Assembly: GCA_020721005.1 (NCBI GenBank)
Contig: DYNP01000017.1
Coordinates: 1-64,000 of the forward strand
Length of the DNA stretch: 64,000 bases
Direction of reading: 5' to 3'
DNA from: Thiomargarita sp.
GTDB lineage: Bacteria > Pseudomonadota > Gammaproteobacteria > Beggiatoales > Beggiatoaceae
Under the pieces are notes generated by a model. That model was not told where the DNA came from. It was given only the letters and a program-made list of their open reading frames with translations, and did no database searches. Of this stretch, positions 3,901 through 45,231 are shown one piece after another (position 1 is the first letter of the stretch; each line of letters begins with the position of its first letter). Both the position numbers and the translations under genes were made by a program.

Positions 3901-4768
3901 AGTCAACGGGGGCATCTTACAAATTGATGATTATGGGTATTGGGAGGGGTGTCGTCGCGCAGTGCATGAGTTTGAGACCACTCGCTCCTTAAAGTTTGAT
4001 TTGAAACCGATTGATGATACAGGGGTTTGGTGTGTGAAACCTGATCAATTTCCTGTCAATCCAGTTTTGGAACGGTCTTTGATCTCTGAGTTTTCACAAG
4101 ATGATCCCATGAGTTTGGGAATTCAAAGCCAAATGTCGCAGAATGAGCGTTTTCAATTGTATTATGCAGTGCGAAAAGAATTGAGAATTTCAACTGATAA
4201 GCCAGTGCGTTTTATAGAAATTGGTTCGTTTGCCGGCGCTTCTTTATTGTTGACTTGTCGGGCTTTTCACAGAATAACGCCCTATTTTCAAGGTTTTGCC
4301 ATAGAGCCCAATCGTCATCCACAGTTGATGCAGTTGGTCCCTCAATTAAAACCGCAGGTGACCCATCTGCCTATGTTGTCTCAGCAGGCATTGCCCCAGT
4401 TACAGCAACAATTTGAACAGGATGGAAATTTTCCAGTGTTCATTTTTGTGGATGGTGATCACAGTTACGAAGGGGTATGGCAAGATGCTATTGATTACTT
4501 CCAATTGTTGGCTCCGGGGGGATTGATGGTATTTCATGATTGTTTGCCTGCTTTGAATGCCGAGAATCGGGAGGCTATTCTGTTCCATCATGGTGGTCAG
4601 GAGCCTGGAGTGCGGCGGGCTTTTGAGGAATTGGTGGAATGTACTTATGGGGAAGTGGTGGAGTTGCCCTTGTTATTCCCCAGCGATCCAACTCAAACAC
4701 AGGCTTACTTGCCGATTATTCCAGGGGTATTTTCAACTTTACGGGCTTATCGGAAGGGAATGGAGTAA
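995..4768 (+). CDS. Modular methyltransferase-glycosyltransferase-TPR-TylF-methyltransferase protein
   Basis: The 1257 residues hold several catalytic modules. After a short TPR-like N-terminus comes a class I SAM methyltransferase (VLDVGSG near residue 90, then DFVYCSHVLEHADNPE near 150). Residues about 290-680 resemble CgeB/YkvP-type glycosyltransferases, ending with RIFEATGCGAFLLAE and a short tail before a Ser-rich linker. A TPR-like stretch covers roughly 710-800. Residues about 820-1020 are a TylF/macrocin-type O-methyltransferase (VVECGVAGGGST, YAFDSFEGLP, LQIDDYGYWEGC). The last 190 residues are another methyltransferase (RFIEIGSFAGAS, FIFVDGDHSYEG, GGLMVFHDC). It probably builds and methylates surface glycans. 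No signal peptide is seen, so it should be cytoplasmic. The RBS (AGGA) is distant from the ATG. Substrate is unknown. Confidence 0.85.
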   Translation: MSHSRFGNRRKKIVDLHDFSNALQLARQDYQRANYLESLDIYEQLVTTYPAQSIPLLAEVYEIYQQLPQKDRYNLYQARFFEFGIQPTDKVLDVGSGHLPFPFATHLTDITLENHQYGRAGIPFKHVAGKPVFECNIEHLPFGDQEFDFVYCSHVLEHADNPEKACQELMRVGKRGFIETPTKGKDIFLNTAKLSNHRWAVDYFDQTLVFFEYTPEEIEGLQHGILLQMHLGPETLREKAFSALLYLKANQINTMFLWEQSFNYEVRRISGPSQVIAPAQIDPISSPTVQQSQSRPALKFMQVHNFYEAYLHNFYTRRPTLAAQSFQEQITALVQDGFAAIHIFAPYMQQVGYQTSQLVIANCAPAQSQWLREHHRTINNPEQWLYEVVRQQIETFEPDVLYLTDPITFDSHFIRSLPKKPRLIMGWRASVIPAGVDWSEFDIILSNLTALRTMAVQLGAKSAESFFPGFPEQFLSALVNTPTGSIDVVFPGSIMLPVHTQRLIYLQKVAQAANSPGQGFSCAFYLSANPQSLPPEVAHYQQGARWGLEMYRTLRSGKIVLDIRGDIGFVDPATQTTVDLARRETANMRIFEATGCGAFLLAEHHENLQDYFEIGREIETFRNEQELIEKIRYYLAHPKEREAIARRGQQRCLSQYSTLKRAQELDSLVQKFLSSNNLSSMSKLSSSSTTIQSVPSYSPPSNSPSQQNSFLSTDFMQRAQQALIANNFDTALNLLSQAKALKQPTLNLDTLRAMCFLKLNQVGAAWQALLEELRFFPDNQEAKNWLQQIETQVPQLKIGQIQDPEFQDLFKLIRPHTMLSEARLYSLFSLVKRICVENLPGNVVECGVAGGGSTALMALVIKRYSQQPRWLYAFDSFEGLPAPTTIDKHEGAPAESTGWGTGTCAGSEEHLRNLCTQLGIVDVVKPIKGYFQDSLPRMRNWVGMIALLHLDGDWYESTQVILQQFYDRIVNGGILQIDDYGYWEGCRRAVHEFETTRSLKFDLKPIDDTGVWCVKPDQFPVNPVLERSLISEFSQDDPMSLGIQSQMSQNERFQLYYAVRKELRISTDKPVRFIEIGSFAGASLLLTCRAFHRITPYFQGFAIEPNRHPQLMQLVPQLKPQVTHLPMLSQQALPQLQQQFEQDGNFPVFIFVDGDHSYEGVWQDAIDYFQLLAPGGLMVFHDCLPALNAENREAILFHHGGQEPGVRRAFEELVECTYGEVVELPLLFPSDPTQTQAYLPIIPGVFSTLRAYRKGME

Positions 4769-4786
4769 GGAGTAACCACCCCTAGC

Positions 4787-5058
4787 CCCTCCTTAAAAAG
4801 GAGGGGAAATTGGGTTGTTTCCTTCTTTAAAAAGGAGGGGAAATTGGGTTGTTTCCTTCTTTAAAAAGGAGGGGAAATTGGGTTGTTTCCTTCTTTAAAA
4901 AGGAGGGGAAAATTAGGTTGTTTCCTTCTTTTTAGGGAGGGAAAATTGGGTTGTTTCCTTCTTTTTAGGGAGGGAAAATTGGGTTGTTTCCTTCTTTAAA
5001 AAGGAGGGGAAAATTAGGTTGTTTCCTTCTTTTTAGGGAGGGGAAATTGGGTTGTTTC
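4787..5058. repeat. Tandem array of eight 33-35 bp palindromic units
   Basis: Eight head-to-tail units start at about 4787, 4821, 4855, 4889, 4924, 4957, 4990 and 5025. Each has a hairpin core of the form CCTTCTTTAAAAAGGAGG followed by a GGAAATTGGGTTGTTT spacer. Unit 1 has the perfect arms CCCTCCTT/AAGGAGGGG. Units 5, 6 and 8 carry TTTTTAGGGAGGG variants. The array fills the gap behind the methyltransferase gene and could terminate or stabilise its transcript. This core is a familiar dispersed repeat in filamentous bacteria (recollection, not a search). Confidence 0.9.
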
Positions 5059-5126
5059 TTTGTTCTCAGACAGAATATGGGAACTGTAAATTTTGATTTT
5101 AGGTTTACTTTTTTGTCAGGTGAATC

Positions 5127-28934: not shown

Positions 28935-29963
28935 TTATGGATGAATGTTCAGTGTGGCCAACTGTTTAAAGAGTTCATCGGCCACCCACTGATGAACTTG
29001 CTCGTTGGGATGGGCATCTGTGGCATTGACAATCAGAGTGGCTGGAGAATGATTAATAAATAAAGGAGTTAGATTGAGGGGAGTGAGTTGTAACTCATTA
29101 AACAGCTGGGTAATTTGTTGCAAGATGGGTTGACTGGAGTCGATTGCAACCAAGTTTGGGAATAGGATGGGCAGCAGTTGGATTTGAGTTTGTTGGGTGT
29201 ATTTGGCGAGTTGAGTCAATTCCTGTTTGTGAAGTTCCCAAGCGGGACCTGTGGCGTAAAATTGGCGCAGGTATTGCCAGTAGCGATCTTCAGGTTGTTG
29301 ATTGTGATAGCGGTACCATTGCCAATAGAAATAATTGAGGAAGTGGGAATTGCCAATGAGCCAATTGAGAACTGGTTGGGAAGGAAGTGAGGCTAAGTTT
29401 TTGAATTTAAAGGATTCTCCACTTTTAAGGGCAGCGGCTCGAATGTCGTCGATGAAGTAAGAGAGTATAATAAGCGCTGGTTTATAGGGGTAGTTGAGAA
29501 TGGCTTGATACTGTTCTGTGGTGCTCCAACCAACCTGGGCCACATTAGCCACCAGCCAATTGTTTCCCAATTGGGCTTGCAAGCGGTTGGAAAATCGATG
29601 TTGGTAGTTGGGAATTCCTTGCCCGGCAACAAATGAATCGCCGACTACGAGGATGAGGCGTTTAGTATCCAGTTCTTCTTGGGAATAGTCTGGGTCCCGA
29701 TAACCTAAGCGATTGATTGGCTGCCAGTGGGTTTGGAACCAACGTTGGTTGGCCAGGGTGAAACTGAAGCTGTCGGATTGGATGATGAAGAGGTAGGAAC
29801 TAACTTCAATGATGATGGCCAGGACCAGGCAGACGTGGGTGAATAGGCTGAGATTGATGGCCATTTCTCGGAAGCGAGAGGGGTATTTCCATATTTTGAA
29901 AAGGGCAAGGGTTAGGGTGATGGAGAGTAGCCAGATGAGGAGGATCAGAAAGTAGATGGTCAT
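28935..29963 (-). CDS. Membrane-anchored SGNH/GDSL hydrolase
   Basis: The 342-residue protein has two N-terminal membrane segments (residues 2-24 and about 38-62) and a periplasmic SGNH-like domain. Block I is LVVGDSFVAGQG (Ser nucleophile near 109) and the last block is DAHPNEQVH, holding the Asp-x-x-His pair. Such enzymes deacylate or acylate glycans and lipids. The start codon overlaps the stop of the sterol-desaturase-family gene (ATGA at 29960-29963), so the pair is an operon. A role in modification of an envelope lipid or glycan is inferred from this pairing. Confidence 0.85.
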   Translation of the reverse strand: MTIYFLILLIWLLSITLTLALFKIWKYPSRFREMAINLSLFTHVCLVLAIIIEVSSYLFIIQSDSFSFTLANQRWFQTHWQPINRLGYRDPDYSQEELDTKRLILVVGDSFVAGQGIPNYQHRFSNRLQAQLGNNWLVANVAQVGWSTTEQYQAILNYPYKPALIILSYFIDDIRAAALKSGESFKFKNLASLPSQPVLNWLIGNSHFLNYFYWQWYRYHNQQPEDRYWQYLRQFYATGPAWELHKQELTQLAKYTQQTQIQLLPILFPNLVAIDSSQPILQQITQLFNELQLTPLNLTPLFINHSPATLIVNATDAHPNEQVHQWVADELFKQLATLNIHP

Positions 29964-30814
29964 GTTGCTGGTTTCTCAGTTGTTTTGAAGTGGCGTTTGA
30001 AGCGTTGGTAGAGACCGATGAAAGGTTGGATTTGGTGTAGGATGAAGTTATTGGTGTAGTGGGGATCGCCGAATTCTCGAGGGGCTGGTTTTTGTTCGGG
30101 GGGGGGATCGTAGGCGGTCCCAAATAGGATGTCCAGGAAGATGAAGTTGCCGGAAAAGTTGGTGTCCCAGGCTTCTCGATCGGTGGCATGGTGCCAGCGG
30201 TGAAAGTGGGGGGAGGAGATCATGAATTTGTGGGTCCAGCGGGGACCATTCAGATTGCTGTGGATGTAGCGGTCCATGAAGGCGCGGAAGAAGAAGTAGA
30301 TGAGCAGGGCGGTGGGGGTGGCACCGAGGTAGATGATGGCAAAGATGTTGGGAGCGCTGAAGGCGATGCGTTCTAGGATGTGAAAGCGGCTGGTGGAGAA
30401 GGAGTCTAAGAGAGTAGAACTGTGGTGGACTTTGTGGAATTCCCAGAGTATTGGGACTTTGTGGAAATAGTAGTGAACGATGTAGAAAGCCGTTTCCCCG
30501 GTGATGATGAGGACCAGGAGGTTGAGCCAGAGAGGTTGATCAAGTAGGGCGTTTTGGAGGAAGGCTTGGCCGGTGGGATCGAAGAAGTGGGTGTAGAAGG
30601 CGAGGGCAACCAGGCTTTCTAAAATAACGGGGGAGGCGGCAAGGGTGACGATTTGGAGGAAATGATTTTGGTAGGTGTAGATGACGTCGCTGATGAGACC
30701 CCATCGTAGGAAGGGTTGGGGGTAAATGGGCCAGAGTTTTTCGAGGATGGGGAGTAGGGCAATCCAGCCGATCAGGCTGAAGAATTGGAGGAGGGTTTGT
30801 AGGTGGGGGGACAT
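29960..30814 (-). CDS. Sterol desaturase / fatty acid hydroxylase family membrane protein
   Basis: The 284-residue integral membrane protein carries the diiron histidine motifs HYYFH, HKVHH and HRWHH at the spacing of the fatty acid hydroxylase superfamily, with four or more membrane helices around them. It would hydroxylate or desaturate a lipid at the cytoplasmic membrane. The exact substrate (sterol, fatty acid or carotenoid-like) cannot be told. It is the first gene of the pair with the SGNH hydrolase. No strong ribosome-binding site was seen. The sequence is unusually G-rich on the plus strand (GGGGGG runs near 30098). Confidence 0.9.
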   Translation of the reverse strand: MSPHLQTLLQFFSLIGWIALLPILEKLWPIYPQPFLRWGLISDVIYTYQNHFLQIVTLAASPVILESLVALAFYTHFFDPTGQAFLQNALLDQPLWLNLLVLIITGETAFYIVHYYFHKVPILWEFHKVHHSSTLLDSFSTSRFHILERIAFSAPNIFAIIYLGATPTALLIYFFFRAFMDRYIHSNLNGPRWTHKFMISSPHFHRWHHATDREAWDTNFSGNFIFLDILFGTAYDPPPEQKPAPREFGDPHYTNNFILHQIQPFIGLYQRFKRHFKTTEKPAT

Positions 30815-37900: not shown

Positions 37901-38615
37901 TGTCGACAAATTCATTTTCACCATAGGCTGGGCCACGAACATAACGGACATAACGAATATCAGTAGCTTGAGTCGTAGGATAACCTTTGATGCGTCCATC
38001 GGCAAAATTAACGCCGAAAGCGGTGGCTGCTCCGTCCATAGTGGTACTCACATATTCTGTACTGGACCAGTACTGAGCATCTATGTAACGTTCTCCAGCA
38101 GCGGTATCCCCGTATTCAAAATTAAAGTAATCCGTATCTATATAAGGGACTGCATCGGCTGGAACTGTCGTGCTGGAAGGATCGGCAGTGCCTGTAGTGC
38201 CACTGAAGTCGATCAGGGAATACAGTTCTTTAATGGTGGGCAGTCGCCAATCTGTATGCCCCCCCAGATCAAGGGTGGCAGCGTCATCATTGGCTGCTGC
38301 AAAAGTCTTCTTATCCTGCTGATTAATAATGCCATCGTCATTAAAATCAGGCTCTTGCTGCCACATCAGCCCGGTGACATTGTCAGTAATAGTTCCATCC
38401 TGATTATCGGTATAACTGGGTGCATTTCCAACATACTTGGCATCTTGGCCACTGAAGGCTGCTCCTTGCTCGGGACAAGCGATCTCCGTGCTATTCGCAC
38501 CATAACACTTGTCCTGTCCGGTATCTGGCAGGGCAGCCCAAGCAGCTGATCCCAGACACAGGGTAGATATGACCAGTGTTGAGGCTAAGCTGGAGTACCC
38601 ATTTACTGTCTTCAT
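34911..38615 (-). CDS. Secreted DUF1566 modular surface protein
   Basis: The 1234-residue protein has a signal peptide (TLVISTLCLGSAAWAALPDTG). Two DUF1566/Lcl-type modules lie at about 45-230 and 235-430 (VTGLMWQQEPD, DDWRLPNAKELQSLVDY, YYWSSTT). Two repeats of about 200 residues follow (GTLVEGETLTGTYEYADADNDPE.. FWNGFQWSELTAAEQALW). A low-complexity linker has four PPPPVDTE-like units. Then comes a glycine-rich solenoid (LKGGTLTGFIKNQG, LKGTIKGD), and a C-terminal domain of about 110 residues (KVDIVVYAT, HLWDQDAANLVAF, LNVNFGYRKANG) shared with the LamG protein at 22011-23798. A role in adhesion or matrix is inferred. AAGGAG lies ten bases before the ATG. A wrecked second copy is at 44904. 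Confidence 0.85.
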   Translation of the reverse strand: MKTVNGYSSLASTLVISTLCLGSAAWAALPDTGQDKCYGANSTEIACPEQGAAFSGQDAKYVGNAPSYTDNQDGTITDNVTGLMWQQEPDFNDDGIINQQDKKTFAAANDDAATLDLGGHTDWRLPTIKELYSLIDFSGTTGTADPSSTTVPADAVPYIDTDYFNFEYGDTAAGERYIDAQYWSSTEYVSTTMDGAATAFGVNFADGRIKGYPTTQATDIRYVRYVRGPAYGENEFVDNADETITDNSTDLMWLQKDSGSFETGYTNEYETPAGSLNWEQALGWCEGLEFAGHDDWRLPNAKELQSLVDYTRSPDTTDSAAIDPLFSATKLEKGTNNSGVPNYPYYWSSTTHLDGPDFAVYVAFGEAQGYMELPNATTTGQQLYDVHGAGAQRSDPKAGDPTPYQGEGNGPQGDAISIYNFARCVRDNAEEEVLNNLPTAANVAISGTLVEGETLTGTYEYADADNDPETGSTYEWYQADDGQGTNATAIAGATTPTYLLTAAEVGKFLQFCVTISDGKTIGPATQEKNWADLTAEEQAAAAELGYTEAYWNSPETASTPNASTEEVRQPAAGEDLGEFWNGFQWSELTAAEQALWAALGWTEGYWTQYFDYLAKGKGKTCSAWSTAVASATTEPPVAETPLNNLPSAGQVAITGTLEEAQTLTGTYQYSDADNDPESGTTFQWYRATDAQGTGSTAIEGAVATTYALTSAEVNQSLQFCVSVSDGKIVGPASEGKTWAELTAEEQAAATQLGYNQLYWDVKQTPITALPPPVTGVRHPAIGESLEDFWNGFQWAELLPDEQNLWGQLGWNEGYWVMYATYVNEGTVCSAWSQPVAGLTPPPPVDTEIPPPPVDTETPPPPVDTEIPPVISPPPVSPPPVSPATPVVTSSSLAPPSCALSNNTLNCLYKGNGQTLTNTTLTATANVSNVVFAGQINNAGWVSNVTIASGATLKGGTLTGFIKNQGTLTDIEFKGASITGGVLMGTIKSIRSGFLIDVVLGASARINGGKLKGTIKGDCQAPALLENLVITRGTKVYCATEGSNVTFEDEDGAIVSEDPDGESDPDDGENELPPVVEIPDLPELGAAVATDKEGVEVKTSTNFKAGISVNDGEFETTVTAKKLSDVLDIQSAMAVDAKDVGTKVDIVVYATYQATAQDEPVYLMLDGNRGYHLWDQDAANLVAFESEVTLGEAQLIEIYRGILLYGGILNVNFGYRKANGTVVLSSDGVEINLDD

Positions 38616-38717
38616 GAGGTATTAACTCCTTAAAAAGGTTAAAAGTACCTTCTACTTCATACTTGATATTTCTGCGTAAAAAGAAGGCTTTCAAGATGGA
38701 TAGCTTACCTAAAGTAG

Positions 38718-38942
38718 GTAAGTTTTGTAGTATAGATTGGGAAAAATACAATATACCCCTTCTATTCATCCATTTCCCTGAATAATAGCGAATAATGTTC
38801 TGAGAATAAAGTCCTCACCTACTTTTCATGACAAATTATTTGAATTAATTACTCAATAATGCAAAAATCCATTAATTTTATATGGATAACTGAGCTTTTG
38901 ATAATAAGGGACCTGGTTTAAGATCGATAGGTGAAGGGGACC
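38718..38942. repeat. Left copy of segmental duplication
   Basis: This block matches 45007-45231. About 150 bp (GTAAGTTTTGTAGTATAGAT onward) are nearly identical, and the remaining part, which corresponds to the 3' end of the adhesin gene, is more diverged. The match stops exactly where MITE copy C begins. Confidence 0.9.
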
Positions 38943-38944
38943 AG

Positions 38945-39237
38945 AATGGAGGGTCTAGAAGGTACATTGGAGTGGAGGCTTTAGCCGGAATGGAGGGTCT
39001 AGAAGGTACATTGGAGTGGAAGCTTTAGCCGGAATGGAGGGTCTAGAAGGTGCATTGGAGTGGAGGCTTTAGCCGGTCAGCCGTAGGCACCACCCCATAT
39101 ACACAAATTGCAATGGACTACCGCCGACCGACTAAAGCCTCCACTCCAGTATACCGGCTAAAGCCTCCACTCCAACGTATCTTAACCGAGGGGCAACTCT
39201 CATTTTTTCATGATCGCATACTTTTGTAAGAGGTCTA
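38945..39237 (+). mobile_element. MITE-like element, copy C (left end lost)
   Basis: The element lacks the TAGACCTCTTGC left end. It starts directly with three 44-bp direct units (38945, 38989, 39033), each holding TTGGAGTGGAGGCTTTAG or a one-base variant. Next come the conserved centre, inverted units and the right arm GAGGGGCAACTCTCATTTT, ending CTTTTGTAAGAGGTCTA. The truncation abuts the adhesin remnant. Its intact end faces the five-gene block. Confidence 0.85.
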
Positions 39238-39245
39238 AATAAACT

Positions 39246-39779
39246 TTAGCCAATTTCTCCCAATCTCCGTAGCTTTTCATATAAAACCAAATAGTTTGTT
39301 TTTGCATCATGGATCTCATTTCTCATAACCATTTGGTATAAATCATCAAATGACATTTTTACAACATGAATATCTTCTCCGTCATCTAGTTTTTGTCCCA
39401 CCTGTTCTCCGATTCCGGTAAAAGCAAACATGTGAGTCGCTTCAGTATCATGGCCAACGCTTGAATAAAGTCTGCCAACGTAATGAATTTTATCTACGTC
39501 AATTTTTATTCCGCATTCTTCTTCTAACCCTTCAGCTGCAACTTCCTTTGGTGTTAAACCAGGTTTGTCTAAAGTTTCTGAAGGCAAGGTCAAAACATAA
39601 TGGTCAAGTCCGGGGCTGAATTGTCTGGCAAGATAAACATGATCTTCCTCATCAAGATAAAGTAAGATTACACTGTCTTTACAAACAACAATATCGTGCA
39701 ATTTTCCATTAAAATTTCTTTTAACCAGAGTTAAATAACCTTTATGGACTATTTCATCACCGTCTTTAATATTTTCCAT
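39246..39779 (-). CDS. Nudix-family protein with degenerate Nudix box
   Basis: The 177-residue protein resembles ADP-ribose pyrophosphatases: strand-rich N-terminus (DSVILLYLDEEDHVYLARQFSPG), Nudix region 67-91, and the C-terminal IHDAKTNYLVLYEKL. In the box the usual Arg-Glu pair is E83-G84, while E87, E88 and G90 are kept. The conserved Gly before the helix is Ser67. Hydrolysis may therefore be weak or altered. It is the last gene of the five-gene operon, 45 bp after the HAD gene, and ends 8 bp from MITE copy C. ADP-ribose or a related NDP-X as ligand is inferred from the overall fold only. Confidence 0.82.
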   Translation of the reverse strand: MENIKDGDEIVHKGYLTLVKRNFNGKLHDIVVCKDSVILLYLDEEDHVYLARQFSPGLDHYVLTLPSETLDKPGLTPKEVAAEGLEEECGIKIDVDKIHYVGRLYSSVGHDTEATHMFAFTGIGEQVGQKLDDGEDIHVVKMSFDDLYQMVMRNEIHDAKTNYLVLYEKLRRLGEIG

Positions 39780-39824
39780 ATCCCAATAAAAATCCTCTGT
39801 CTACTTAATTGAAGGGAATTAAAT

Positions 39825-40511
39825 TCAGGAAATCCACTGTGAAATTTCCATAAACTCTTCTACTGAATGCGTAGCGACTGCACACAACTCAGGATGTGCT
39901 TGATAGGCGAAGGATTTACCCACTTCTTGGGCAATGAATACATCATTTTTTCCATCTCCTATAAAAGCACATTCTTCTCGGCTGAATTGGTATTCTTTCA
40001 TGAGTAAATGCATAAATTCAACTTTGCCTTGAAAATCTGAAGGCAGAATATTCCAATGTTCCAGTGTACCGTCTGGGGTCCAAAAAAGATCTGCCGAAGC
40101 ATAAGAATGAGTTATTTTCAGGTGTTGTTGAGCGCGTCTTGCTTGATCAACAAAACCACCTGAAATAATTGCCGTTTTGATTCCTTGTTGGTGAAGATTT
40201 TTAAAAGTTTCCTCCACACCTGGATTGTATGGAATACTGTCAATAGCGTTATCGAACATGGACTTTGTCAAGCCATATTTCTTAAAAATTTCAAGACAAT
40301 CATCTATCCAATCCAAGTAACTTCTATATTCACCTGAATCCCATTTGATAACAGTTTTTTCGTTATCGATCAAGGCAAGTGAACCTAATTCACGCATTAA
40401 TCTCAGCCACAGGCTATAATGCTCATGATTAAGTTCACCAGGACCAAACTCAACTTGTTGCTTTGAAAAGACCGTTCCCTCCATGTCAACAAAGAGTAGT
40501 TTAATACCCAT
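39825..40511 (-). CDS. HAD-family phosphatase, SerB/ThrH-like
   Basis: The 228-residue enzyme has HAD motif I as D9-M-E11-G-T, the D-x-E-G form seen in ThrH-type phosphatases rather than the common D-x-D-G. Motif II is IISGGF and motif III/IV lie in AFIGDGKNDVFIA, with a helical cap between residues 20 and 100. It should dephosphorylate a small phosphate ester; phosphoserine-like or nucleotide-derived substrates are both possible. It starts 4 bp after the NadE-like stop, so the two are cotranslated. No membrane segment. Confidence 0.87.
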   Translation of the reverse strand: MGIKLLFVDMEGTVFSKQQVEFGPGELNHEHYSLWLRLMRELGSLALIDNEKTVIKWDSGEYRSYLDWIDDCLEIFKKYGLTKSMFDNAIDSIPYNPGVEETFKNLHQQGIKTAIISGGFVDQARRAQQHLKITHSYASADLFWTPDGTLEHWNILPSDFQGKVEFMHLLMKEYQFSREECAFIGDGKNDVFIAQEVGKSFAYQAHPELCAVATHSVEEFMEISQWIS

Positions 40512-40514
40512 ATA

Positions 40515-41306
40515 TTAAAAATTCACCCGGCAATAATCGGGGAAAACATCCATCTTATGCGCAATAAAAGAAACCCTTTCCAGTACGGTTAGAATAATAT
40601 TTTGCTTTATATCCAATTTCATGAGATTGGCATACAGGTCTGCTTTGCTGGAGGTCTCGTAGGTGTACAAAATCTCATCCAGGTCTACATATTTGACACC
40701 CTCAAGTTCAACACAAGAACCAGCAACGCAAGATACAGAACAAATCCTACCCGCAGATTCTGAAATGGTAGAAATCAAATGATCCAGTCCCAGTTGTTTT
40801 GCCATTCCTTTTTCCTGCATTTTAAATACTCCGCCTAGAGGGCTATAATCACCGACCAGGGAACCTTTTGGATACCAACCGGTCAATCTTTCCGTGCCAT
40901 TAATAGTTCCCAGACAAATTCTTCCTTCCTTACGGGTAGTCTCTTGGATCATAAGACCTATGAGCCTTGCATCCATAGTGGAGATGTCCCTGTAACTGCC
41001 GAGATTAAAACCAAGGTTTTTAATCACATCTTTACGCACTTCTTCTATTGAAACAACACCAAGTTGCAAATTATGCTCTTTGGCAAAACTTTGGACAAGC
41101 TCGATATTTTCTTCGCTTTCAGAAGTACTAGAAGTTCTAACAGTCAATGCCTTGACTTTATCACTGCCCAATGCTTCTATTGCCAATAGACAAAGCAACG
41201 AGGAGTCAATGCCACCACTTAAGCCTATTAAAACTTGGCTAGACCCTGCTTTTTCCCTGATATAATTCTTAACTTTTTCTGTGATTTGTGTATAATTCTT
41301 GTTCAT
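40515..41306 (-). CDS. NAD-synthetase-like ATP pyrophosphatase
   Basis: The 263-residue protein belongs to the NadE family, which adenylates a carboxyl group and amidates it with ammonia. The PP-loop SGGIDSS is at 30-36 and the GTxNxTE motif at 133-139 (GTINGTERLTGWYPKG). DEILYTYE near 210-217 matches the family's C-terminal part. Where NadE normally has a Pro-Ser/Thr-Ala..Gln-x-Asp-Glu loop, this protein has three cysteines, C189, C193 and C198. No glutaminase domain is present, so ammonia would be the donor. The start overlaps the ATPase stop by 4 bp. A paralog with changed substrate is as likely as the housekeeping enzyme. Confidence 0.85.
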   Translation of the reverse strand: MNKNYTQITEKVKNYIREKAGSSQVLIGLSGGIDSSLLCLLAIEALGSDKVKALTVRTSSTSESEENIELVQSFAKEHNLQLGVVSIEEVRKDVIKNLGFNLGSYRDISTMDARLIGLMIQETTRKEGRICLGTINGTERLTGWYPKGSLVGDYSPLGGVFKMQEKGMAKQLGLDHLISTISESAGRICSVSCVAGSCVELEGVKYVDLDEILYTYETSSKADLYANLMKLDIKQNIILTVLERVSFIAHKMDVFPDYCRVNF

Positions 41307-43300
41307 TTCTTTGATCCCTCAATTAGTTTGGTGTTAGAATTTTCGATAGCTGGTAACATTGCATTTGCAACACCAACTGCCAAGCCTGCATTGTACAACA
41401 GTGTTGCTGCAATAATGCCAAAATTTAAAAAATAAACGCCACCAATACAAATAATGCCGGGAATAATAGTGATGGCTAAATTATTTCTCATATTCTTATC
41501 AAGTTCATTGGCTAAATAAAACAAATCTGGTAAATGAACCAAACTTTTATCCATAAAAACAACTTGAGCAGTATCTGTAGCGATAGTAGATGCACCATGT
41601 AATGAAATTGAAACATGAGCAGTTTTTAGAGCAATAGAATCATTGATTCCATCTCCTACAAAACAAACCGATTTTCCCTCTGTTTGGAATTGCTTGATTA
41701 AAGCAGCTTTATTTTCCGGTAAAGTTTCAGCAAAATAATCATCTACCCCCAGTTCTTTTGCCAATTGTCGAGTAGGTTCTTCACGATCACCTGAAATAAT
41801 TGTAATTCTCATACCATTTTGTTTTAATTTTTTAATAACTTGCTTGACTTCAGGACGAATAGTTGTCACTATTTCAATAGTACCAATCAATTGTTTATTA
41901 ACGGCAATATAGGTTAGAGAATTACCTTGCTCATGGCAGTGAGCTTGAATATCGCTGATGCTTATTGGAATAGGAATATTTTCTAATTCCATAAAATTTG
42001 CGCTACCTACTCGAATTATCTCATCTTCCAATTTAACCTTTAGACCGTAGCCTACTTCATAGTTGGTCTTATCAACAGAAAATAATTGTAAATTTCGTTC
42101 TTTTGCGGCCAGCAGAATTGCTCTGGCAATTGGATGGGTTTGCTTATATTCAGCTGTGGCGGCGTAACAAAGTACTTCCTGTTCAGTATAGGTAGAACAA
42201 CAATGAATTTTACCTATTGCTGGTTGATCTTGCGTTAAGGTTCCTGTTTTATCAAATACAACTGTATCAACAGTTTTTAACAAATCTAAGGCACGTCCAT
42301 CTTTTACTAGAATTCCTTTTTCTGAGGCTATTTTGATGTAATTAAGCATACTGATAGGGGCTATAATTCGTATATTGTAACCAAAAGAAGCCATCAAAGC
42401 AGCAGCCGCACTTTTAACCCCTAAAATAGGTAAAGTAATGGCCGCAATTAATAAAGTTGGTATAGCAGTTTGATCAACAATTATTTCGCCTCTGGATTCA
42501 AGAGTGGATTTATAATCCACGGTATGATTTAAAATATGACCTATTTTAGCAGCAACTGTTTCTTTTCCTGTTTTATCAACACGGATATACAACTTGCCAG
42601 ATATTAACATGGTTGAAGCAAAAACCAGATCACCTTCCATTTTTTCTACAGGTTGCGCTTCGCCAGTGAGTTTATGCTGATCTATGCTGCCTATGCCTTC
42701 CATAATCACGCCATCTATAGGAATCATTTCTCCTGCATAAATGATAACAATATCACCTATTTGCAGTTTGTCAAATGAGGTTTGCACTTCAACGTTATTT
42801 ACTGCGACCCAAATAAACTGGGGAACTTCACCTAAAATATTAATCAAACTTTGTTTAGATTTATCTTGGGTTTTCAGCAATAACTTTTGGCTCGTATAAT
42901 AAAAAATAAAAAATAAAGCCATTGCAAAGAAATATTTCGATACTAATAAGACAAGTGCTATGGTGGCATCAAGGACGCCTGATTTAATTTCCCTTTTCTG
43001 AAAAAGCTCTTTATAGCCGCGCACAATAAAGGGCATATTTAGATAGGTCAACCCTACCATACAAATTGGTAGGAGTATGGGAAAAATTTGACTGCTTATG
43101 GTAAGTGCCAATATAGCTGCTGAAAAAGCCAGATTAGTATTAATCTCTTTCTCATTTTGTTGCTGAGTTAAGATTTGTTTGTTTTGATTGGATAATTTTT
43201 TTCTACGGGAGTTTATACGTTTAGAGTTTATACGTTGTTTTTTAATTGATGTTCCAACGTATAAAGCAACCCCACTTAGAAACGCGCCAAATAAAAGCAT
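41303..43300 (-). CDS. P-type ATPase, P1B-like without CPC motif
   Basis: The 665-residue pump has the P-type signatures TGEAQP (actuator), DKTGTLT with phosphorylated D350, HP in KQTHPIARAIL (a P1B hallmark) and GDGIND. Membrane helices surround these. The transport-site motif Cys-Pro-Cys of heavy-metal pumps is replaced: aligned to ACPCALGLATP is SFGYNIRIIAP. There is no N-terminal metal-binding domain, only a Lys/Arg/Gln-rich segment (25-48) after a hydrophobic start. Ion or other substrate is therefore open. The stop overlaps the NadE-like start (ATGA). It lies 12 bp after the nucleoside hydrolase gene. Confidence 0.9.
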   Translation of the reverse strand: MLLFGAFLSGVALYVGTSIKKQRINSKRINSRRKKLSNQNKQILTQQQNEKEINTNLAFSAAILALTISSQIFPILLPICMVGLTYLNMPFIVRGYKELFQKREIKSGVLDATIALVLLVSKYFFAMALFFIFYYTSQKLLLKTQDKSKQSLINILGEVPQFIWVAVNNVEVQTSFDKLQIGDIVIIYAGEMIPIDGVIMEGIGSIDQHKLTGEAQPVEKMEGDLVFASTMLISGKLYIRVDKTGKETVAAKIGHILNHTVDYKSTLESRGEIIVDQTAIPTLLIAAITLPILGVKSAAAALMASFGYNIRIIAPISMLNYIKIASEKGILVKDGRALDLLKTVDTVVFDKTGTLTQDQPAIGKIHCCSTYTEQEVLCYAATAEYKQTHPIARAILLAAKERNLQLFSVDKTNYEVGYGLKVKLEDEIIRVGSANFMELENIPIPISISDIQAHCHEQGNSLTYIAVNKQLIGTIEIVTTIRPEVKQVIKKLKQNGMRITIISGDREEPTRQLAKELGVDDYFAETLPENKAALIKQFQTEGKSVCFVGDGINDSIALKTAHVSISLHGASTIATDTAQVVFMDKSLVHLPDLFYLANELDKNMRNNLAITIIPGIICIGGVYFLNFGIIAATLLYNAGLAVGVANAMLPAIENSNTKLIEGSKK

Positions 43301-43312
43301 ACTTTTCCCTTC

Positions 43313-44410
43313 TTAATTCCCGCTCTTTGAACCGTCGAGTGATACCAGCGTTTTTAAGTCCTCAACTAAAATAGCTGACATATTAACTTCATCCACGTCC
43401 AAAACAACCCAAGAATTGGCCTCTGGTTTAGCGAAATGCCTCTCACCAATAAGAGTTTGTCCAATTGAAAATTGGCCTTTGGTCTCTACATTAACTTCGG
43501 CTCGGCGGATATTCATCAAAGTTTCCGGGTAAAACAAATAAAACAAAACAGATGCGTCATGCACAAGAAAACCACGAATACCATGACTGTCTCTGCTGCT
43601 TAATGTACTCAGCACCATAAAACTATTAAATTTTTTAATAAATTGAGCTATTTTGCTGCTCGGGTTAGTTTCAAGGATGGAATTAGCTTGTTCTTCGGTA
43701 ACAAGAATCTTATGACTTGCATCCAAGGGTAAGATGACTGTATCATTTCTACTCTTGAATACGGTCTGAGCTGAATTGGGATCGCAATGGATATTAAACT
43801 CCGCATGAGAAGTCATATTGCCACGATAACGAAAAGCACCCCCCATAATCACCACTTCTTTGGCTTTGGCGAGAATACCGGGGCTTTTTTCTTCAGCAGC
43901 GGCTAAGTTTGTTAAGGGACCTATGCTAACAACAGTGATTTCGCCGGGTGCTGCATTTAGCTTTTCAACAATCAAATCATCAGCTTTACGCGCTTTATCA
44001 TAGTTGTGCGACGATTCTGGTAATTCCATTGCTACACCACCTAAGCCGTCATCACCAAAAATATCCTCAGAACTACCACCTAGACATTTGTAATCAGAAC
44101 GTGCAGCACGTGCTATTTCCACATGAGCAAAGCCACCCAGTGCGAGAATTCTACTGGCATTTAAGAAAGTCTTTTGAGGGATAACATTGCCCCCAATGGT
44201 AGTTATAGAATCAATTTCGGCAAAGCCTTGTTTAACCAAACTCATTAGCCAAAAAATGGCAAACGCATCATCTACTCCCGGATCGGTATCAATCAAGATT
44301 TTAAGTTTATCTTGACCGGATGTTGTTTCACTGGCATGTACTACTAGAGGAAAGCTTAACATGAAGCTTATCAATGTAGACAAAGCATAACGCATAAATC
44401 TGTGATTCAT
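43313..44410 (-). CDS. Periplasmic nucleoside hydrolase (IUNH family)
   Basis: The 365-residue enzyme has a signal peptide (RYALSTLISFMLSFPLVVHA), so it should act in the periplasm. The calcium-binding DTDPGVDDAFAI motif is typical of inosine/uridine-preferring nucleoside hydrolases, which split the N-glycosidic bond of ribonucleosides. Further signs are SIGPLTNLA, VIMGGAF and HAEFNIHCDP; the Asp near the C-terminus is in FLVHDASVLFY. I start at ATG 44410, which has GGAGAT seven bases upstream. A longer frame from 44476 runs into MITE copy D and would bury the signal peptide. It is the first gene of the five-gene operon. Confidence 0.92.
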   Translation of the reverse strand: MNHRFMRYALSTLISFMLSFPLVVHASETTSGQDKLKILIDTDPGVDDAFAIFWLMSLVKQGFAEIDSITTIGGNVIPQKTFLNASRILALGGFAHVEIARAARSDYKCLGGSSEDIFGDDGLGGVAMELPESSHNYDKARKADDLIVEKLNAAPGEITVVSIGPLTNLAAAEEKSPGILAKAKEVVIMGGAFRYRGNMTSHAEFNIHCDPNSAQTVFKSRNDTVILPLDASHKILVTEEQANSILETNPSSKIAQFIKKFNSFMVLSTLSSRDSHGIRGFLVHDASVLFYLFYPETLMNIRRAEVNVETKGQFSIGQTLIGERHFAKPEANSWVVLDVDEVNMSAILVEDLKTLVSLDGSKSGN

Positions 44411-44448
44411 ACTAGCATCTCCAATAAATATCAATAAATTTTTCAAAT

Positions 44449-44763
44449 TAGACCTCTTGCAAAAGTATGCAACCATGAAAAAATGAAAGTTGCCCCTCAG
44501 TTAAGAAATGTTGGAGTGGAAGCTTTGGAATAGAGGCTTTAGCCGGCCCCTGGAATAGAGGCTTTAGCCGGTCCCTGGAGTGGAGGCTTTAGCCGGTCAG
44601 CGGTAGGCCCTTGCAATTTGTGTATGCGGGGTGATGCCTACGGCTGACCGGCTAAAGCCTCCACTCCAACCTACCTTTTAGAGCCTCCCCTTCAACGGTA
44701 ACTTTCCTTTTATTTTTTCGTATCCCATCTCTATCGCATCATCTACTTTTGCAAGTAAGTCTA
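44449..44763 (-). mobile_element. MITE-like element, copy D (inverted)
   Basis: It starts TAGACCTCTTGCAAAAGTA and ends ACTTTTGCAAGTAAGTCTA. It runs opposite to copies A-C: the AGTTGCCCCTC arm comes first and ATACGAAAAAATAAAAG-like sequence, read on the minus strand, comes last. The centre has direct and inverted GGCTTTAGCCGG units. It ends 39 bp before the nucleoside hydrolase start, so it may influence transcription of the operon. Confidence 0.87.
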
Positions 44764-44903: not shown

Positions 44904-45005
44904 ATGACCGGCAAATTCGAAACCTTCACATTCACCATAAGCTGGTCCACGGACATACTAAACATCAATAGCTTGAGCCGTGGGATAGCCTTTGATGCGT
45001 CCATA
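44904..45005 (-). pseudogene. DUF1566 gene remnant
   Basis: The first part matches 37739-37766 and the second 37920-38005 of the intact DUF1566 gene, joined by an internal deletion of about 150 bp and followed by a jump of about 700 bp to the sequence upstream of that gene. The interval 44764-44903 before it is AT-rich with nothing recognised. Confidence 0.85.
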
Positions 45006-45006
45006 T

Positions 45007-45231
45007 GTAAGTTTTGTAGTATAGATTGGGAAAAATACAATATACTCCCTTCTATTCATCCATTTTCCTGAATAATAGCGAATAATATTCTGAGAATAAA
45101 GTCCTCACTTACTTTTCATGACAAATTATTTGAATTAATTACTTAATGATGCAAAAAATACACTAATTTCGTATAGATAACTGAGCTCTTAACAACAAAG
45201 GACTTGATCTAAGGTCGGCAGGTAAAGGGGA
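45007..45231. repeat. Right copy of segmental duplication
   Basis: Matches 38718-38942. From 45163 on it is the coding end of the adhesin gene. The noncoding part is better conserved between copies than the coding part. Confidence 0.9.

Follow-up and report, generated by a model that had tools for sequence, protein, structure and literature searches.

A five-gene operon of foreign composition in Thiomargarita sp. and its possible role as a specialised-metabolite cassette

The stretch of 64,000 nucleotides of Thiomargarita sp. analysed here (contig DYNP01000017.1, in the following the window) holds on its minus strand, at 39246-44476, five open reading frames, for which our best explanation, with a probability of about 0.45, is a horizontally acquired, genome-specific cassette for a specialised, antimetabolite-like metabolite: a pyridine-type nucleotide would be modified, trimmed and exported. 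The tight packing of the genes, with one overlap of 4 bp and gaps of 3, 12 and 45 bp, had been claimed in a preliminary description of this DNA and was borne out by the reading frames and their spacings. Pfam and NCBIfam agreed with the family names given there, that is a Nudix protein, a HAD protein (phosphoserine-phosphatase-like), a NAD synthase, a P-type ATPase and a nucleoside hydrolase. The three altered key motifs were also recovered: F-G-Y in place of CPC in the ATPase, a Cys triad in the NadE-like protein and EG in place of RE in the Nudix box. The genes are as follows, with the basis of each assignment in brackets.

39246..39779, minus strand: Nudix hydrolase-like protein, ADP-ribose pyrophosphatase/NudE type, box RE changed to EG (open reading frame list, Pfam/NCBIfam, alignment)
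39825..40511, minus strand: phosphoserine-phosphatase-like HAD phosphatase with DMEGT (DxE) as motif I (open reading frame list, Pfam/NCBIfam)
40515..41306, minus strand: NadE-like PP-loop ATP pyrophosphatase, dinucleotide-site loops replaced, Cys triad 189/193/198 (Pfam/NCBIfam, alignment, model)
41303..43300, minus strand: P1B-like P-type ATPase lacking both CPC and the N-terminal HMA CxxC, from a family expanded in this lineage (NCBIfam, alignment)
43313..44410, minus strand: nucleoside hydrolase (IU_nuc_hydro) with a likely signal peptide, favoured start 44410, reading frame open to 44476 (Pfam/NCBIfam, homologue)

The NadE-like protein has the PP-loop motif SGGxDS with S30, G31, G32, D34 and S35 invariant in the alignment, and several core residues are also retained. 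In NadE enzymes the dinucleotide site is lined by an N-x2-[AS]-R-x-R helix, a GDGxxD loop and a GQxDE loop. All three elements were altered in the alignment, the helix to STMDARLIG, GDGxxD to GDYSPLGG and GQxDE to CSVSCVAGSC, so that C189-x3-C193-x4-C198 stands in place of the second substrate loop (GQxDE). The identity to the ordinary NadE enzymes aligned was 23-27 %, and the protein scored 105 bits against a PRK13980 cutoff of 255. A structural model built with viral NadE relatives presented the NadE fold (pLDDT 85, pTM 0.83) and was poor at the Cys loop, with pLDDT <50 for residues 182-200. Its fold matches were NH3-dependent NadE enzymes including the Francisella NMN synthetase; the LarE sulfur transferase appeared lower in the list. 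A separate, ordinary NAD synthetase is encoded in the same genome (C44, 535 aa), therefore the housekeeping role does not fall to the NadE-like protein. Searches for its orthologs in 58 genomes of relatives, 369 of the class, 398 of the phylum and 43 of the family revealed only ordinary NadE, as did scans of 85k genomes with exact peptides and masked motifs, which reach close relatives and exact motifs only; more distant orthologs outside their reach may possibly exist. A scan of viral contigs returned only ordinary-looking NadE relatives with 23-32 % identity over longer stretches. An archaeal tandem NadE of Haladaptatus was considered as a relative and rejected, since it scores strongly as an ordinary NadE (558 bits) and has no Cys triad. 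On the Haladaptatus plasmid (L019:3187-5813) this two-domain tandem protein lies in an amt/PII neighbourhood, and next to it is a NadE-like paralog with the annotation 7-cyano-7-deazaguanine synthase.

For the nucleoside hydrolase, 44410 is a more probable start than 44476, because a GGAG site precedes that ATG and a homologue in another genus of the family (genome G017) aligns from there. This start leaves the protein with a likely signal peptide, read from MNHRFMRYALSTLISFMLSFPLVVHA. Both family motifs are present in the translation, DTDPGxDD as ILIDTDPGVDDAF and HDA as VHDASV, and the Pfam match had an E-value of 3e-70. The G017 protein (57 %) was the one homologue in the family and stands alone, beside tandem repeats at a contig end (L172:385-1506, C266). 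The translated HAD protein has DxE (DMEGT) rather than DxD as motif I, a feature missed in the preliminary description; a DxE variant of this motif occurs in ThrH. The search for HAD orthologs across the class gave SerB-like partial matches only. The Nudix protein departs from the box G-x5-E-x7-RE-U-x-EE-x-G-U in the alignment by EG in place of RE, with EExG retained. Judged from this box, a likely metal ligand is lacking, and the activity of the enzyme may be low or of a different kind.

The operon ATPase was aligned within a set of 90 family members, 88 from this bacterial family and two from plasmids of other bacteria. The motifs DKTGT, TGE, HP and GDGxND are present in it and the catalytic motifs are invariant across the alignment, while the TM4 site varies: the operon protein has F-G-Y instead of CPC, and a Cys at the first or third CPC position, as in CPC, SPC, TPC or CPH, occurred in none of the 90. 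An N-terminal HMA CxxC within the first 120 residues was likewise found in none; this motif is not universal even among true P1B ATPases. Six paralogs with 40-44 % identity lie in varied settings of the same genome, giving 7 copies in total. At E <=1e-120 the family was detected in this genome and in 18 of the 23 sampled members of the bacterial family, with 2-12 copies each, and was absent from all 13 genomes that represent other families of the class. In a descriptive count, on a sample ordered by resemblance to the ATPase of the window, 60 of 93 ATPase reading frames (fragments included) had a same-strand neighbour within 100 bp, and among the 76 such neighbours the 25 most frequent Pfam families were all enzyme families. 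Methyltransferases (three EgtD-type), TPP enzymes, enolase-like racemases, TauD/GBBH proteins, aminotransferases, decarboxylases and ketosynthases were frequent. Control genes at the same loci had methyltransferases too, but mixed with histidine kinases, TPR and HNH proteins. Individual partners included a histidine decarboxylase, an NNMT-type methyltransferase, a PLP decarboxylase, a GBBH-type oxygenase, a glutamine-synthetase-like ligase, sulfotransferases and, by sequence, an NRPS.

Some paralogs lie directly beside a pyruvoyl histidine decarboxylase (L092:4209-6603), an NNMT/PNMT-type methyltransferase (L091:7570-10400) or EgtD-type methyltransferases (L131:4327-7403, L159:5580-8803), and these partners provide ready substrate hypotheses for the orphan pump family. 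At another locus (L063:8771-11395, G000 C76) a CPC-less P-type ATPase reading frame of 874 aa is situated inside an apparent nuo (complex I) operon and reads into a NuoE-like C-terminus, which may reflect a fusion or an artefact of assembly. The pump of the operon belongs to a large, apparently undescribed family found beside many different small-molecule enzymes; among open-licence papers, a search on P-type ATPases in biosynthetic clusters or on FUPA families gave no match. It is a tentative and rather doubtful idea that the CPC-less ATPases of this bacterial family constitute a novel class of primary-active exporters, in which every member would be matched to the small organic metabolite made by its operon partner: elsewhere of the histamine, trimethylhistidine, carnitine or guanidino type, here a modified pyridine nucleoside produced by a NadE-like enzyme whose Cys triad is catalytic. 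If true, dozens of pumps annotated as 'heavy metal' would be metabolite exporters, each hinting at the compound of its neighbours. For a group of orphan P-type ATPases, the question of substrate would then become directly testable, because partners such as the histidine decarboxylase and the EgtD-type methyltransferase name a candidate substrate.

For the cassette at the window locus we infer substrate, order of steps, direction of transport and product as follows. A pyridine nucleotide is the likely substrate because the modifying enzyme is NadE-like. In a pyridine-type mono- or dinucleotide (NaMN, NaAD or a similar compound) this enzyme would adenylate the carboxylate and then replace it. 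An amide would result or, should the Cys triad hold sulfur or an iron-sulfur cluster, a thioamide or thio-acid. Next, the pyrophosphate would be split by the Nudix enzyme and the 5'-phosphate taken off by the HAD enzyme. The CPC-less ATPase would export the resulting riboside or base, a cationic or polar product, and the exported nucleoside hydrolase would free the base in the periplasm. By analogy, the Nudix, HAD and nucleoside hydrolase proteins would be natural trimming steps of such a pathway; given its solitary homologue in G017, the nucleoside hydrolase may stand outside it. If the reading of the ATPase holds, the operon would add a route to an NAD-derived antimetabolite that employs an NAD synthetase put to a new use. 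The preliminary description had combined a nucleotide-derived metabolite and its transport with a MITE-borne mobile unit; the former is plausible and gained support from the genomic company of the ATPase family, the latter is not supported.

The composition of the operon is foreign and speaks for an origin of its genes outside this genome. Its genes have GC3 values of 0.25-0.37, against a mean of 0.426 (sd 0.059) for 107 local genes, among which four of the five rank no higher than the 1st percentile and the remaining one at the 16th; a comparison of codon use with the neighbours had been proposed in the preliminary description. The operon ATPase has a GC3 of 0.25 versus 0.35-0.44 in the six paralogs. 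Its closest relatives (48-53 %) include loci of the same family with a GC of 0.34-0.40, therefore acquisition of the ATPase from a lower-GC family member is plausible from the sequence data. The gene of the window with the highest GC3 (0.70, most deviant codon use) lies at 29960-30814 and has a composition opposite to the operon. Long internal direct repeats (358-bp, 34-bp periods) were observed at 1-714 and 4754-5064, in or near a large plus-strand reading frame. A locus-specific direct repeat of 228 bp encloses the operon together with two MITE copies.

38715..38940, unstranded: left copy of the 228-bp direct repeat (89 % identical), beside a DUF1566-like gene
45004..45231, unstranded: right copy of the 228-bp direct repeat, preceded by a DUF1566-like coding fragment (44917-45004)
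38941..39236, unstranded: MITE copy C, without its left end repeat and with the right one present; its end is 9 bp beyond the stop codon of the Nudix gene
44450..44762, unstranded: MITE copy D, end repeats of the AGACCTCTTGCAAAAG type, own 3-bp target duplication ATT/ATT, long hairpin

A 201-bp probe of the direct repeat matched only these two sites in the genome. The repeat derives from the region upstream of the gene beside its left copy, which is probably DUF1566-like. The segments 37903-38940 and 44917-45231 represent a partial duplication of this gene and its upstream region around the operon, the right copy being a decayed fragment. An insertion that duplicated the flank would give the 228-bp repeat, and so would a tandem duplication followed by decay.

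The MITEs were central to the preliminary description, in which the operon was a mobile unit placed exactly between copies C and D. The positions were correct, but the placement is not above chance. The MITE core 20-mer had 1312 matches at <=3 mismatches in the 4.05-Mb genome and none in the reversed control; giant sulfur bacteria of the Beggiatoaceae had been known before to be rich in MITEs (PMC4853749). On the contigs that were listed in full, 10 of the 28 gaps between neighbouring clusters of exact matches were <=5.5 kb, therefore two copies separated by 5.4 kb are nothing unusual. That the matching arms face the operon is trivial, as each copy is itself an inverted repeat. A composite MITE transposon would have two intact outer ends and end copies without independent target duplications. 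Such transposition is not supported, because copy D has its own ATT duplication, in the same 3-bp pattern as several other complete copies, and in copy C the right end repeat is the only one. Homologues of the NadE-like, HAD, nucleoside hydrolase or Nudix protein were not found near the other ATPase loci read, where the sole other match was a weak HAD match to an ATPase itself. Within what was searched the five genes co-occur nowhere else, with or without MITEs, an outcome that the preliminary description itself had named as refuting its claim; the set is a singleton and no conserved neighbourhood backs a functional linkage of all five. Two copies do flank genes of foreign composition, still a composite unit moved between two inverted MITEs is very unlikely, without a second copy in the genomes searched, and copy number, spacing and target duplications led us to reject it. 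We regard the MITEs on either side as incidental to the operon. Copy D lies 39 bp upstream of the nucleoside hydrolase start, the leader RNA with this copy folds far better than shuffles (z -8), and it may affect expression. TAACTGA repeats are known from marine Beggiatoaceae; none was present in the window.

A salvage of NAD and nucleosides, with bases freed by the periplasmic nucleoside hydrolase, pieces of nicotinate or NAD recycled in the cytoplasm by the NadE-like, HAD and Nudix enzymes and an ATPase that imports or balances an ion, appears unlikely to us. The four enzyme families have nucleosides, nucleotides or phosphates as their substrates, and the catalytic DTDPGxDD motif and the likely signal peptide of the nucleoside hydrolase would suit this role; however, a normal NAD synthetase is already available, both the Nudix box and the substrate loops of the NadE-like protein are altered, the operon has no base transporter and no phosphoribosyltransferase, and the relatives of the ATPase are paired with biosynthetic-type enzymes. 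The low GC3 common to the genes, the 4-bp overlap, the spacings of 3-12 bp and the intact frames argue against an accidental assembly of foreign genes and a lineage ATPase, joined by insertion at a recombination-prone spot and sharing no pathway. The singleton set, the solitary nucleoside hydrolase in G017 and the duplicated flank point towards such an assembly, which we also consider unlikely.

The automatic annotation of the ATPase would make the locus a heavy-metal efflux operon, since TIGR01525 (heavy-metal P-type ATPase) was the best NCBIfam model and scored above its cutoff. Neither a Cys at the CPC positions nor an N-terminal CxxC was seen in 90 relatives, and the frequent partners include no metal chaperone or regulator family. 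A heavy-metal role of the ATPase was rejected on its motifs, and this operon type is highly improbable. Least credible is anti-phage defence or counter-defence by NAD rescue, which had been raised as possible at the outset: the NAD-type enzymes would fit, but none of the five proteins had a PADLOC match and viral contigs presented only the ordinary-looking NadE relatives (23-32 % identity), so that this suggestion found no support.

Compared with known systems, the NadE-like protein has its fold and PP-loop in common with NH3-dependent NadE enzymes (2e18, 3p52; Francisella NMN synthetase 3fiu) and differs from them by low identity, altered substrate loops and the extra Cys triad. The ATPase shares domain architecture and catalytic motifs with P1B heavy-metal ATPases, but has no CPC and no HMA CxxC. 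A precedent for P-type ATPases moving small organic cations are the P5B polyamine ATPases (PMC10654040); these are eukaryotic with a PPALP motif in TM4, and the operon protein reached only 103 bits against the TIGR01657 cutoff of 618. The 6-thioguanine operons, ycf in Erwinia amylovora and tgsA-F in Staphylococcus chromogenes, make a base analogue from a nucleotide and secrete it, with a PP-loop nucleotide alpha-hydrolase, a Nudix protein, a HAD phosphatase and an efflux protein (PMC7994395), the same kind of parts as in the window. Their PP-loop enzyme is sulfur-transferase-like (YcfA/TgsB-type), here it is NadE-type; their efflux is EmrE-type, here a P-type ATPase; tgs includes the cysteine desulfurase TgsA, whereas the operon has no desulfurase; and their product is a purine, whereas a pyridine-type product is proposed here. 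By this analogy, the best reading is an operon that would work like the tgs and ycf operons without being a member of their group.
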